Below are positions 4,043-11,076 of a stretch of 11,761 nucleotides of DNA, piece by piece (position 1 is the first letter of the stretch; the number at the start of each line of letters is the position of its first letter). A program made the translations under genes and the position numbers. Source of the DNA: a bacterium (lineage in GTDB: Bacteria; UBP18; UBA7526); the NCBI GenBank assembly GCA_030619985.1, contig JAUXAI010000039.1, positions 1-11,761 on the forward strand. Reading direction: 5' to 3'. Under the pieces are notes generated by a model. The model saw only the letters and a list, made by a program, of their open reading frames with translations. It made no database searches and was not told the origin of the DNA.

Positions 4043-4558
4043 TCACCCCTTCACTTTTACTGGAATTCCAGATACCACCAGATAGACTTCATCTGCTGCC
4101 TGAGCGACTATCTGGTTTGCTCTGCCTGCTATATCTCTAAACCTTCGGGCTAATTTGTTATCTGGTACAATTCCCATTCCTACTTCGTTAGAGACTATCA
4201 AAACGGTTGCCTTAATCTCTCTTATTTTGTTTACCAGTTGCCTAATTTTTTTTAAAACATCCTTCTTACCGCTCAATAATAAATTAGAAATTAAGAGGGT
4301 GAGGCAGTCTAAGAGAATGACCTCATTCTTTTCTGCTATTCGGGATAATACTTCAGTAATATTCTTCTCCTTCTCTATTGTCTTCCAGTGAGCGGGGCGA
4401 TTCTTTCGATGAATCTTTATCCTCACTTCCATCTCTTTATCTTTTGCCTGGGCGGTGGCAATATAGGTCACTTTCTTACTTAATCTATTGGCCGACTTCT
4501 GGGCGAAAGCGCTCTTGCCGCTCCTCGCCCCTCCAGTGATAAATATTAACCTTCCCAT
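4043..4558 (-). CDS. cobU: Adenosylcobinamide kinase / adenosylcobinamide-phosphate guanylyltransferase
   Basis: Bifunctional enzyme that phosphorylates adenosylcobinamide and then transfers GMP from GTP, making the adenosylcobinamide-GDP used by CobS. At 171 residues it is a normal length. GGARSGKS (9-16) is the Walker A loop. In RIKIHRKNRPAHW, His50 aligns with His46 of Salmonella CobU, which is guanylylated during catalysis. VILLDCLTLLISNLL is the Walker B-like strand, and SNEVGMGIVPDNKLARRFRDIAGRANQ with the C-terminal DEVYLVVSGIPVKVKG is highly characteristic. I chose ATG 4558: it has a GAGG ribosome site and begins MGRLIFITGGARSGKS as the family does. An in-frame start at 4615 would add 19 residues read from dispersed repeat sequence and is rejected. 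First gene of the B12-riboswitch operon. Confidence 0.96.
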   Translation of the reverse strand: MGRLIFITGGARSGKSAFAQKSANRLSKKVTYIATAQAKDKEMEVRIKIHRKNRPAHWKTIEKEKNITEVLSRIAEKNEVILLDCLTLLISNLLLSGKKDVLKKIRQLVNKIREIKATVLIVSNEVGMGIVPDNKLARRFRDIAGRANQIVAQAADEVYLVVSGIPVKVKG

Positions 4559-4732: not shown

Positions 4733-4772
4733 AAAAAAGTACTTCAACCTTCCCTCGAAGGCCAGTTACTTC

Positions 4773-4932
4773 AGCATCCAGCGAGATTTCCTGGCTTCCG
4801 GATCATCCTACTTCCCACGCCTTCCCGAGACGCGAATTATCGCAAATACTCAGTGGCGGTTGTGGGTTTCGTCCCCAGTTACAGTGGCGGGGCCACTCCG
4901 GTTTCTCACCGGATTCCCTCAGCCTGGATACT
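4773..4932 (-). promoter_or_regulatory. Cobalamin (AdoCbl) riboswitch aptamer
   Basis: Transcribed leader of the cob operon. It contains the conserved core in order: a GAGGGAATCCGGTG segment, GCCCCGCCACTGTAA, and the B12 box AAGCCAGGAAATCTCGCTGG (4797-4778). The closing P1 helix can form between GTATCC (4931-4926) and GGATGC (4779-4774). With the terminator that follows, it would stop transcription of cobU-cobT-cobS and downstream genes when cobalamin is abundant. A peripheral arm at 4851-4827 holds a repeat-like palindromic segment resembling tracts at 4624-4690 and 10859-10900. Confidence 0.95.
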
Positions 4933-4955
4933 TACTATATTTAGTTACTGAATCT

Positions 4956-4984
4956 AGTTTAACCTATTATTTCCCGTTTGTCAA
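4956..4984 (-). promoter_or_regulatory. Sigma70-like promoter for the cob operon
   Basis: TTGACA (4984-4979) is a perfect -35, followed by a 17-bp spacer and TAAACT (4961-4956) as -10. Predicted transcription starts near 4949, about 17 nt before the riboswitch. The -35 lies inside the last codons of the upstream phosphatase gene, so the cob operon gets its own start without an intergenic gap. Confidence 0.7.
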
Positions 4985-5593
4985 GTTTTTTAGATGGGAG
5001 GTATCATTCTGGAGCAAGACCTTTGCTCTCTTACTTTGATACTCGATAATGGAGATTCCTCCATTGCTGGTAATTGTCTTCCACCAATTGTCGGTTCCCA
5101 GGCCTAAGGCATCCATGAGGATAATGCGGATCGGCCCTCCGTGGGTGACGATGGCTACCCTTTGATTGGGGTGAGTGCTAATGATTTTCTTTATTGTAGT
5201 CTTAGTACGTTCTGCTAATTCCTGGATGCTCTCTCCTCTGGGAATTTTAATCTTAGAGGGCTCTCTCTCCCATTCATCAAGAAGCCCTCTCCACTCCCTT
5301 TGAATTTCATCATGCGTCTTCCCCTCCCAATCACCAAAGTCTATTTCCCTTAACTGAGGGAGGGTTCTTATCTTCAAGGAGTGGTAACGATTTATAGCCT
5401 TTGCTGTATACTCTGTTCTTCTTAGGTCGCTGGAGTAGATAGCGTTTAAGGGCTCGTTTCTTAATCTTAGGGCGGTCTCTTTCGTCTGCCTCTTCCCCTT
5501 TCTTGTCAAGGGCGTATCCCTATGCCCCTGATATCTTCTATCCCTATTGTAAGGTGTTTCGCCATGCCTGATTAAGATTAGGGTAGTGCTCAT
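4967..5593 (-). CDS. Histidine phosphatase (phosphoglycerate mutase family), possible alpha-ribazole phosphatase CobC
   Basis: A 208-residue histidine-phosphatase-superfamily protein. The RHGET motif gives the phospho-acceptor His10, followed by YQGHRDTPLTRKG, the SSDLRRTEYTA segment, REIDFGDWEGKTHDEI and the second catalytic histidine in THGG (His151). These are CobC/GpmB-like features. Dephosphorylation of alpha-ribazole phosphate or cobalamin phosphate is the best guess because cobU, cobT and cobS lie just downstream, but the family is broad and sequence alone cannot exclude another phosphomonoester. Its ATG overlaps the PHP gene stop (ATGA), so it is cotranscribed with the upstream FMN-controlled operon and not with the B12-riboswitch genes. 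Its last codons contain the -35 element of the cob promoter. Confidence 0.85.
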   Translation of the reverse strand: MSTTLILIRHGETPYNRDRRYQGHRDTPLTRKGKRQTKETALRLRNEPLNAIYSSDLRRTEYTAKAINRYHSLKIRTLPQLREIDFGDWEGKTHDEIQREWRGLLDEWEREPSKIKIPRGESIQELAERTKTTIKKIISTHPNQRVAIVTHGGPIRIILMDALGLGTDNWWKTITSNGGISIIEYQSKRAKVLLQNDTSHLKNLTNGK

Positions 5594-6471
5594 AGTTTTG
5601 CCTTTGCTTCCTTCAATCTTTCTATGATTTCATAGGGAGCTTTCACTCTTCCCAGGCGTATCTCTCCCTTTACCTTTCCGTGACAGTCACTCCCCCCAGT
5701 AATCACGAGATCATACTTCTTGGCAAGGGTTATGTAGTAACGAATAACAGAGGGAGGGTTTATGGCATCATAGGCTTCCAGACCCATAAGACCATTCTTT
5801 ACCAATTGAGGAATGAGTTCATCAACCTTGGTCCCTGCGGGATGGGCAAGAACCGGGATGCCCCCTGCTTTCAAGATGATATCTATGGCCTCAGAAGGCC
5901 TCAGTTTATACTTGGGAACAGAGACCGGGCCTCCGCTTCCCAAATACCTCCAGGCGCCCTCAGGAATATTGGGGGCGTATTCCTTCTCCACCAAGGCCTG
6001 GGCGATATGGGGTTTACCGATGGAACCCTTTCCGGCGATCTCTTCCACCCTTCCAAAGTCAACCTCCATTCCTAAACTCTTTAGCCTCTTGACCATCTTC
6101 TTTGCCCTCTCGTATCTCGCTTTCCTGAAAAGGGCTAGTTTCTTCTGGAATTCTTCATCCTCACAATCCATATAGTAGCCCAGGATGTGAACCTCCTTTT
6201 TCCCGTAATCGCTGGAAAGCTCCACCCCAGGCACTACCTCTAATCGGTACTTAGAGGCTGTCCTCTGGGCTATCTCGATTCCATCTGTGACATCATGATC
6301 CGTTATCCCTATCGCTACCAATCCCTCTTTGTGAGCGCACTCTATTACTTCTTTGGGAGTAAGTGCTCCATCTGAGATGGTAGTATGAATGTGAAGGTCA
6401 ACCCCGCACCTTTTACTTCGGGGTATTTTTTTGAAGCAAAAAGGTGCGGGGTCAACGTACTTCTCAGGCAT
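5590..6471 (-). CDS. PHP-domain metal-dependent phosphoesterase with in-frame palindromic insertion
   Basis: A 293-residue PHP-family protein resembling RNase AM/YciV-type 5'-3' exoribonuclease or 3',5'-nucleotide bisphosphate phosphatase. Metal ligands are visible at His27, His29, Asp34 (HIHTTISDG), His59 (ITDHD), Glu84 (PGVELS), His95 (EVHILGYY), His210 (LAHPAG), Asp262 and His264 (GGSDCHG). The ATG at 6471 has an AAGGA ribosome site. Residues 8-25 are encoded by a palindromic element; without it the protein would start MPEKYVDLHIHTT, the usual PHP N-terminus, and be about 275 residues, close to family length. All metal ligands lie downstream of the insert, so activity is plausible. The stop overlaps the phosphatase start (ATGA). 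The link to riboflavin or B12 is unknown; nucleotide or RNA end turnover is the family role. Confidence 0.9.
   Translation of the reverse strand: MPEKYVDPAPFCFKKIPRSKRCGVDLHIHTTISDGALTPKEVIECAHKEGLVAIGITDHDVTDGIEIAQRTASKYRLEVVPGVELSSDYGKKEVHILGYYMDCEDEEFQKKLALFRKARYERAKKMVKRLKSLGMEVDFGRVEEIAGKGSIGKPHIAQALVEKEYAPNIPEGAWRYLGSGGPVSVPKYKLRPSEAIDIILKAGGIPVLAHPAGTKVDELIPQLVKNGLMGLEAYDAINPPSVIRYYITLAKKYDLVITGGSDCHGKVKGEIRLGRVKAPYEIIERLKEAKAKL
6397..6456 (-). repeat. 48-bp palindromic element with 6-bp flanking direct repeat inside the PHP gene
   Basis: On the minus strand GTTGAC (6456-6451) and GTTGAC (6402-6397) flank a 48-bp segment. With flanking bases, ACCCCGCACCTTTT and AAAAGGTGCGGGGT form 14-bp perfect inverted arms, and CTTC/GAAG extends the stem inside. 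The segment is 16 codons long with no stop and encodes PAPFCFKKIPRSKRCG. The flanking repeat looks like a target duplication; removing 48+6 bp restores YVDLHIHTT. It resembles in principle the Rickettsia palindromic elements found inside proteins. No second copy is in the window. Confidence 0.85.
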
Positions 6472-6479
6472 AGCACTTC

Positions 6480-6630
6480 CTTGATAATAAATTCTAAATC
6501 CGAAATCCTAAATCCGAAACAAATCTAAAGCACCAATGACCAAAATTCAAAACGTTGTTTAAAACATTTGGATTTTGAATTTAGATATTGTTTAGAGTTT
6601 AGATATTAGAATTTAGGGTTTACTCGGGAT
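6480..6630. repeat. AT-rich dispersed repeat block between nusB and the PHP gene
   Basis: Noncoding, built of degenerate words such as AAATCCGAAATCCTAAATCCGAAA, CAAAATTCAAAA, TTGGATTTTGAATTTAGATATTG and TTAGAATTTAGGGTTT. The ends are roughly inverted (TAAATTCTAAATC-like sequence at the left, TAGAATTTAGGG at the right). It separates nusB from the PHP gene; no terminator with a clear U-tract and no promoter is evident. The style matches the tract inside cobT. Confidence 0.75.
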
Positions 6631-7059: not shown

Positions 7060-7157
7060 CAACCAGTTAACCAATTGAGCCAGTTGGCCAGTTTTTATAA
7101 CAGGCTAACAGGCAAACAGGCAAACTGGCAAAGTGGCAAACAGGAAAACATTTTTTA
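7060..7157. repeat. Octamer-period repeat block between ribH and nusB
   Basis: Short tandem words with about 8-bp period: CCAGTT/GGCCAGTT units near 7060-7095, then AACAGGC-AAACAGGC-AAACTGGC-AAAGTGGC-AAACAGG at about 7098-7147. The block fills the whole ribH-nusB gap and holds no gene. Confidence 0.75.
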
Positions 7158-9646: not shown

Positions 9647-9681
9647 CTCTTTCTCCTGCTAATTTAGAAGGTTGTTGGTTT

Positions 9682-9712
9682 ACCGTTAACGGTTAACGGT
9701 TCACGGTAAACG
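9682..9712. repeat. Heptamer tandem repeat spanning the ribD stop codon
   Basis: About 4.4 copies of a 7-bp unit on the plus strand (ACCGTTA, ACGGTTA, ACGGTTC, ACGGTAA, ACG). The last ribD codons (NRLP) and its TGA stop at 9703-9701 lie in the tract; the rest fills the ribD-ribE gap. The array therefore sets the C-terminus of RibD. Confidence 0.85.
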
Positions 9713-10858: not shown

Positions 10859-10900
10859 CGCGTCAATTCGCGTATTTTAATTCGCGACTATTCGCGTCTG
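10859..10900 (-). repeat. TTCGCG-type repeat between FMN aptamer and terminator
   Basis: A 42-bp AT-rich spacer with TTCGCG three times plus a leading CGCG, separated by short variable runs, matching the ACRCGAAT family also seen in the cobU leader and inside the cobalamin riboswitch. It lies within the expression platform. Confidence 0.7.
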
Positions 10901-11047
10901 ATCTTCTCCCGTCCGGACTATACCGTCGGCTTCAGAATTTCACTGAATCAATCCAGACATAATCATGTCCGGACTCGCGGGCTTTACCGCCGATCGAGGA
11001 ATTCCCACCTCCGCCAAGGCTTCGGTGGGTCACCTCACCCCGAAGAT
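10901..11047 (-). promoter_or_regulatory. FMN riboswitch (RFN element)
   Basis: Shows the conserved RFN core in order on the minus strand: ATCTTCGGGGTGAGGTG (from 11047), GGTGGGAATTCC, CGGCGGTAAAGCCCGCGAG, the GAAATTC loop, AAGCCGACGGTATAGTCCGGA, and GGGAGAAGAT (ending 10901). ATCTTC and GAAGAT close the P1 helix. FMN binding stabilises the aptamer and favours the terminator at 10829-10858, reducing transcription of ribD and following genes. Confidence 0.97.
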
Positions 11048-11049
11048 TC

Positions 11050-11076
11050 ACCCCGCTCCCCCATGAGGGACGGGGT
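11050..11076 (-). other. Extra hairpin just upstream of the FMN aptamer
   Basis: ACCCCG (11076-11071) can pair with CGGGGT (11055-11050), extended by TCCC/GGGA, in the transcribed leader two bases before P1. The arm ACCCCG is also complementary to CGGGGT at the start of the aptamer (within 11042-11037), so it could compete for that strand. It is not part of the standard RFN fold; role inferred. Confidence 0.55.

Follow-up and report, generated by a model that had tools for sequence, protein, structure and literature searches.

A palindromic insertion within a PHP-domain gene

The window, that is the whole stretch of 11,761 nucleotides that was analysed, carries on its minus strand (5590..6471) a gene for a PHP-domain phosphoesterase of 293 amino acids, assigned by its open reading frame, by a Pfam match (PHP, PF02811, E 1.2e-11) and by orthologues free of the insertion described here. 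Near the start of this gene lies a palindromic mobile element of 50 bp (6402..6451, minus strand), composed of CCCCGCACCTTTT arms around a 24-bp middle, which adds 18 residues in frame after MPEKYVD and gives the protein the N-terminus MPEKYVD-PAPFCFKKIPRSKRCGVD-LHIHTT. The inverted-repeat arms (6401..6414 on the left and 6439..6452 on the right, plus strand) are perfect over 14 bp, as had been predicted from the letters of the stretch; the first base of the left arm and the last base of the right one belong to the flanking duplication. Folded as DNA, the element forms a hairpin with a z of -6.8 compared to dinucleotide shuffles, and copies of the same subfamily were found at loci L190, L159, L110, L303 and L042. 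Comparison with other copies placed the ends of the element (CCCCGC...GCGGGG on the plus strand, 6402-6451) and corrected its size, originally given as 48 bp, to 50 bp. The original prediction was right that GTTGAC stands on both sides, but not that it is a 6-bp duplication: the family comparison leaves a true target duplication of 4 bp (TCAA on the plus and TTGA on the minus strand; 6398..6401 and 6452..6455); of the outer G and C on each side, one belongs to the flank and the other to the end of the element, and they match by chance. The target, of the TTGA type, falls in codons 6-7 of the PHP gene, and both the predicted net gain of 54 bp (18 codons) and the open reading frame were found.

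The family of the source genome is small and isolated, and the collection includes five relatives (G001-G005). Two of them, G001 of the same genus and G005 of the sister genus, have an empty PHP site with a single copy of the 4-bp target; the proteins read MPEKYVDLHIHTT and MLEKYVDLHIHTT, and the DNA reads TACGTCGATCTTCAC, compared to TACGTTGACCTTCAC for the window with both flanks joined. The 18 residues are thus missing from two close relatives, and likewise three distant PHP homologues that were inspected (L046, L047 and L053) have no insertion at this site. In G002 (same genus) the site is filled with an element that has a similar middle and in which both arms differ from those in the source genome G000 (CCCC/GGGG versus CACC/GGTG), and in G003 (third genus) a different 26-bp palindrome occupies the same place, likewise in frame. 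In the PHP gene tree G005 and G003 fall outside the three congeners, whose branching order is not resolved, so that this pattern of filled and empty sites calls for two or more insertions or else for a single one followed by losses and a replacement. The change from CACC/GGTG to CCCC/GGGG was considered as a sign of RNA function and rejected, since both arm types share one middle elsewhere and a template-switch correction of the arms would give the same compensatory pattern.

Apart from the element, the window contains on its minus strand cobalamin and FMN riboswitches (4763-4967 and 10897-11051; both above the Rfam gathering score), which precede cobalamin and riboflavin genes. Intergenic gaps at 7091-7154, 6488-6516 and 9678-9711 hold short repeats, tandem or quasi-palindromic, in the form of 8-bp AACAGGCA units, AAATTCTAAATCCG pairs and GGTTAACGGTT palindromes, and related arms recur across the genome.

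A multi-copy family with 4-bp duplications in several phyla

The 12-bp arm CCCGCACCTTTT is present in 22 copies per strand in the 1.25-Mb source genome, where the reversed pattern is absent, and in 18, 33, 7, 26 and 17 copies in the five relatives. Searching 1.18 Mb of the own genome for YCCCG tips paired as inverted repeats yielded 113 tip pairs, 55 of which are flanked by an exact 4-bp duplication, compared to none in a control that took the right flank 10 bp further out; counting outermost tip-paired elements with a near-exact duplication, the genome holds 62. The duplications are most often TGAA/TTCA or TTGA/TCAA and in some cases TTTA/TAAA. Several arm families (CCCCGCACCTT, CCCCGCCCCTC, TCCCGTTAGACC and CCCCGTTAGAAG) share a common tip, and the window element is one member among them. 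Short copies span 26-140 bp, and copies are found nested inside one another. Additional empty sites with one copy of the duplication were seen in relatives at L096:8204, L131:5015, L132:11745, L186:19394 and L132:3116, and for nested copies. These empty orthologous sites and the many own-genome copies with direct duplications, which a check of the source genome brought to light, support the proposal that the insertion in the PHP gene is a mobile palindrome that entered by target duplication and preserved the frame.

At some orthologous positions different elements are flanked by the same 4-mer (L100:10201 versus L078, L132:5986 versus L084, and L155:5181 versus L309), indicating that sites are re-used or that the middle is exchanged, and at one site the middle is inverted (L038 versus L077). 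The own genome also contains other palindromic-arm repeats, GGTATCGGAATTT, AGTTCGGAGTT and CAGTAACCAGT (e.g. L122:4521, L170:13129, L186:4679), which are possibly further families of small mobile repeats; AGTTCGG also flanks copies in Omnitrophota. Four pairs of overlapping contigs (L094/L122, L097/L176, L121/L164 and L138/L174) are only 83-90% identical, so the MAG probably mixes in sequence of a close relative. A self-BLAST of the own genome for multi-copy insertion sequences returned divergent overlapping contigs and paralogues only.

Insertion into proteins is not confined to the PHP gene. Within the own genome, in-frame copies of 26 bp lie in a LipA-like gene (INPAPARRSGV) and in an O-antigen-ligase-like gene, and in other phyla in-frame copies interrupt genes that we take, by eye and from conserved motifs, to be RF2-, MurE-, UvrC-, MurJ- and prepilin-peptidase-like. 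Three more copies, two in L203 (6683-7141) and one in L217 (1810-1872), lie at two positions of an Omnitrophota gene that, again by eye, presumably encodes RNase P RNA, and a further copy in Omnitrophota, L211, occupies a start codon as copies do in the source genome. A single scan of 84,980 species genomes returned 46 stretches with perfect 13-bp arms, carried by Omnitrophota, several groups of Patescibacteria, SR1, one Spirochaetes MAG and relatives of the source genome; no Rickettsia is among the matches listed, for a scan that used the arms of the source element only, and the viral contigs that were scanned for the arms gave zero matches. At loci from other lineages, an exact duplication flanks 26 of the 91 tip pairs and none in the control.

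Placement on gene-start signals

In the source genome most copies lie on the signals with which genes begin, gene starts being deduced from open frames and Shine-Dalgarno motifs. A TGAA-type copy was scored as occupying a start codon when the last base of the element (A or G) together with the TG of the right duplication formed ATG or GTG at the head of a frame that stays open for 60 codons or more. This exact position is taken by 34 of the 42 outermost TGAA-type copies, while the other two frames are open in 0 and 1 of the 42, and about 14% of all genomic TGAA sites pass the same test (binomial p ~3e-22). The element supplies the first base of the start codon and a Shine-Dalgarno motif: all 34 copies have a Shine-Dalgarno-like run of 5-8 bases in the 3' arm upstream of the start, extending to AAGGAGG or longer in nine. 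For 15 copies the upstream gene has the TGA of the left duplication as its stop codon, so that a stop/start overlap has been split and both genes remain intact. Where the left side keeps a start codon (32 copies), the frame of the old start crosses the element and stops at a TGA overlapping the restored start in 18. TTGA-type copies are mostly found on promoter -35 boxes, with a matching -10 box at 13 of 18 loci, some of which are orthologous to one another, compared to a background of 8%.

Because copies are scarce at other intergenic TGAA sites, this placement argues for at least some targeting, beside a possible effect of survival. With its start codon restored and the motif provided by the arm, the host gene would be able to restart, a terminating upstream ribosome perhaps opening the hairpin. 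A start-codon copy would then be a parasite that has landed on the bases where a gene is most sensitive and yet lets the gene go on working. Such copies affect the annotation of gene starts and create small ORFs in these lineages.

GIY-YIG genes within full-length forms and comparison with known elements

The only gene found between the tips, other than host genes, encodes a GIY-YIG nuclease. Full-length forms measure about 270-375 bp and hold intact GIY-YIG domains (42.7 and 58.7 bits, cut-off 22.6). The 272-bp element in G000:C46 and G002:C30 has 14-bp inverted repeats, CCCCGC tips and a TTGA duplication with one extra C beside one of its copies; it lies on a -35 box and contains nothing but a 77-aa GIY-YIG gene. 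A 374-bp element in G002:C35, on a start codon, has tips identical to those in the window, a GIY-YIG gene and a nested hairpin. A remnant is present in the 130-bp element L137:6152-6281 before a ptsI-like gene, where the upstream ORF MNPAPPKIYYVYLLKSCEKTWIYVGFASDLSRHLQEHSQYIGGAG is a truncated GIY-YIG domain (21 bits in Pfam, cut-off 22.6; 31.7 bits with a model built for the analysis). Similar relics were sought in other short copies (FYTYLLKSKRKSL and similar), with a convincing score for L137 only, and the 24-bp middle of the PHP copy has no clear one. Where short copies resemble the L072 element in their DNA, this proved to be due mostly to a common nested module.

In Patescibacteria, CCCCGCACCTTT tips coincide with GIY-YIG genes in all four ~300-bp tip pairs among the matches listed, forms that are known from tip and gene positions alone: G078:C44 4164-4467 (gene 4196-4393), G084:C4 2671-2967 (gene 2745-2942), G060:C16 42841-43151 (gene 42871-43083) and G060:C29 5640-5935 (gene 5711-5911). 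A fifth GIY-YIG gene adjoins one tip in G060:C48. By a rough estimate, the chance for a ~300-bp tip pair to enclose such a gene is ~7e-4. The 272-bp element and its printed flanks (L189, L292) are nearly identical in G000 and G002, compared to ~91% identity for the PHP genes, and this suggests a recent transfer or a shared contig. Elsewhere in the source genome, a GIY-YIG gene by a tRNA-like stretch is bracketed by a different palindrome, CCGTCCCGTCCGGCC... (L323, G000:C69:30542-30766), perhaps another type of GIY-YIG element.

We consider it probable that the insertion in the PHP gene is a short non-autonomous member of a family whose autonomous form carries the GIY-YIG gene, the hairpins being deleted derivatives moved in trans. 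A family with YCCCG tips would insert into 4-bp TNNA targets, mostly in gene-start signals, namely -35 boxes (TTGAC) and start codons (RTGAA), and the autonomous form would most likely be the element of 270-375 bp in which the same inverted repeats surround one small GIY-YIG endonuclease gene. Cleavage by this nuclease, of which the chemistry is unproven, may drive mobility: it would cut the target with a stagger, the element DNA would be joined with the help of host repair, and filling of the gaps would generate the duplication. MITE-like hairpin-only copies, arising by internal deletion, would borrow the enzyme in trans. To our knowledge, no GIY-YIG protein transposes DNA by itself, and among known GIY-YIG homing enzymes recognition does not extend to their own mobile DNA (PMC1564403); both points count against this role of the nuclease. 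In groundwater genomes, a GIY-YIG gene is among those predicted to have been donated by Patescibacteria to other bacteria (PMC12455944), in line with mobility and no proof of it.

Alternatively, the short copies could be conventional MITEs that a lost or unassembled DDE or other standard transposase mobilised in trans, with the GIY-YIG genes as captured passengers. DDE elements typically have inverted repeats, a duplication of fixed length and deletion derivatives, repeats assemble badly in MAGs, which are incomplete, and rve matches do occur in G003 and G004. Yet of the families tested (Y1, DDE_Tnp_1 and rve), DDE_Tnp_1 (PF01609) and rve (PF00665) are absent from the genus, no DDE transposase lies between the same ends in any larger tip pair, these holding host genes or GIY-YIG, and every ~300-bp tip pair among the matches listed encloses a GIY-YIG gene, which leaves this explanation unlikely. 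Three candidates for an autonomous element, the tip pairs L139:5119-7254, L137:4304-6281 and G004:C17, turned out to hold ordinary host genes.

A REP-like palindrome moved as single strand by a Y1 tyrosine transposase (RAYT or IS200-IS605) next to a fixed TTGAC-like flank is largely refuted and very improbable. ISDra2, of the IS200-IS605 group, targets TTGAC, the hairpin shape would suit such a mechanism, some subfamilies keep a fixed orientation relative to the flank, and Y1_Tnp is found in 19 of 29 other arm-bearing genomes. Against this, Y1_Tnp (PF01797) is absent from all six family genomes and from 10 of those 29, the flanks vary in concert as direct duplications, and the single-strand reading of the orientation bias is weakened by copies that break the bias (L110, L168:5591) and by one site at which interiors are inverted. 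Least credible is that the start-codon hairpins are native ribosome-binding-site structures coupling translation, and the PHP copy an unrelated accident, since their exact placement, the Shine-Dalgarno motif in the 3' arm, the 15 split stop/start overlaps and the upstream ORF ending in an RTGA overlap (18 of 32 copies) are outweighed by empty sites among congeners, duplications, nesting, copies within proteins, RNase P RNA and unrelated host genes, and a PHP copy with the same arms and middle as copies on -35 boxes.

For the GIY-YIG reading in its widest form, that of a new transposable-element class spread over several uncultured bacterial phyla, in which a GIY-YIG gene in short inverted repeats inserts at gene starts with a 4-bp duplication and an end-borne ribosome-binding site, and hairpin-only derivatives yield in-frame protein insertions, we hold the chances to be about even. 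If the GIY-YIG nuclease is the mobility gene, transposition gains a catalytic class beyond DDE, HUH, tyrosine, serine, reverse transcriptase and Cas1. How such elements move is an old question that can now be tested, given a candidate enzyme, duplications of fixed length and sites known in their empty state. As far as found in the literature that was partly searched, the family is large and undescribed, and that search gave no description, for these phyla, of a GIY-YIG element that has inverted repeats. The window feature itself is filed as a variant of protein-coding palindromic elements and the GIY-YIG transposon reading as the novel part; start-codon and -35 placement, the spread over several phyla and the GIY-YIG-encoding full-length form all go beyond the original prediction.

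MITEs are a general class of element, and those of bacterial insertion sequences resemble the elements described here in their terminal inverted repeats, fixed-length duplication, lack of genes and origin as deletion derivatives of a longer element, whereas here no IS transposase lies between the tips. Free-standing GIY-YIG homing genes such as phage T4 seg likewise consist of just one small GIY-YIG gene, next to host genes or between them, but copy into one cognate allele, while the present elements end in inverted repeats, are flanked by 4-bp duplications, occupy many unrelated sites and have hairpin-only derivatives. REP/RAYT systems share the high-copy short palindromes; unlike them, this lineage has no Y1 transposase, and its copies have direct duplications and lie both inside and outside genes. 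The pneumococcal BOX, RUP and SPRITE repeats are likewise small and mobile and can give rise to small ORFs beside genes; start-codon targeting and an element-supplied Shine-Dalgarno motif, both seen here, are not mentioned in the parts of PMC3049150 that we consulted. In-frame palindromes are known from Rickettsia (PMC6649704 and PMC10969869), where short palindromes of several families (RPE; Ogata et al. 2000, via PMC10969869) lie in frame in unrelated protein genes, and the analogy drawn in the original prediction holds for in-frame palindromes in protein genes: both are dispersed short palindromes of several families in a small genome that insert without loss of frame. With the present family, protein-coding palindromic selfish DNA extends from Rickettsia to several phyla, in elements that differ from RPE in being shorter (26-140 bp), with clear 4-bp duplications and empty sites, in lying mostly on start codons and -35 boxes, in having arms common to several phyla and in carrying a GIY-YIG gene in their full-length forms.
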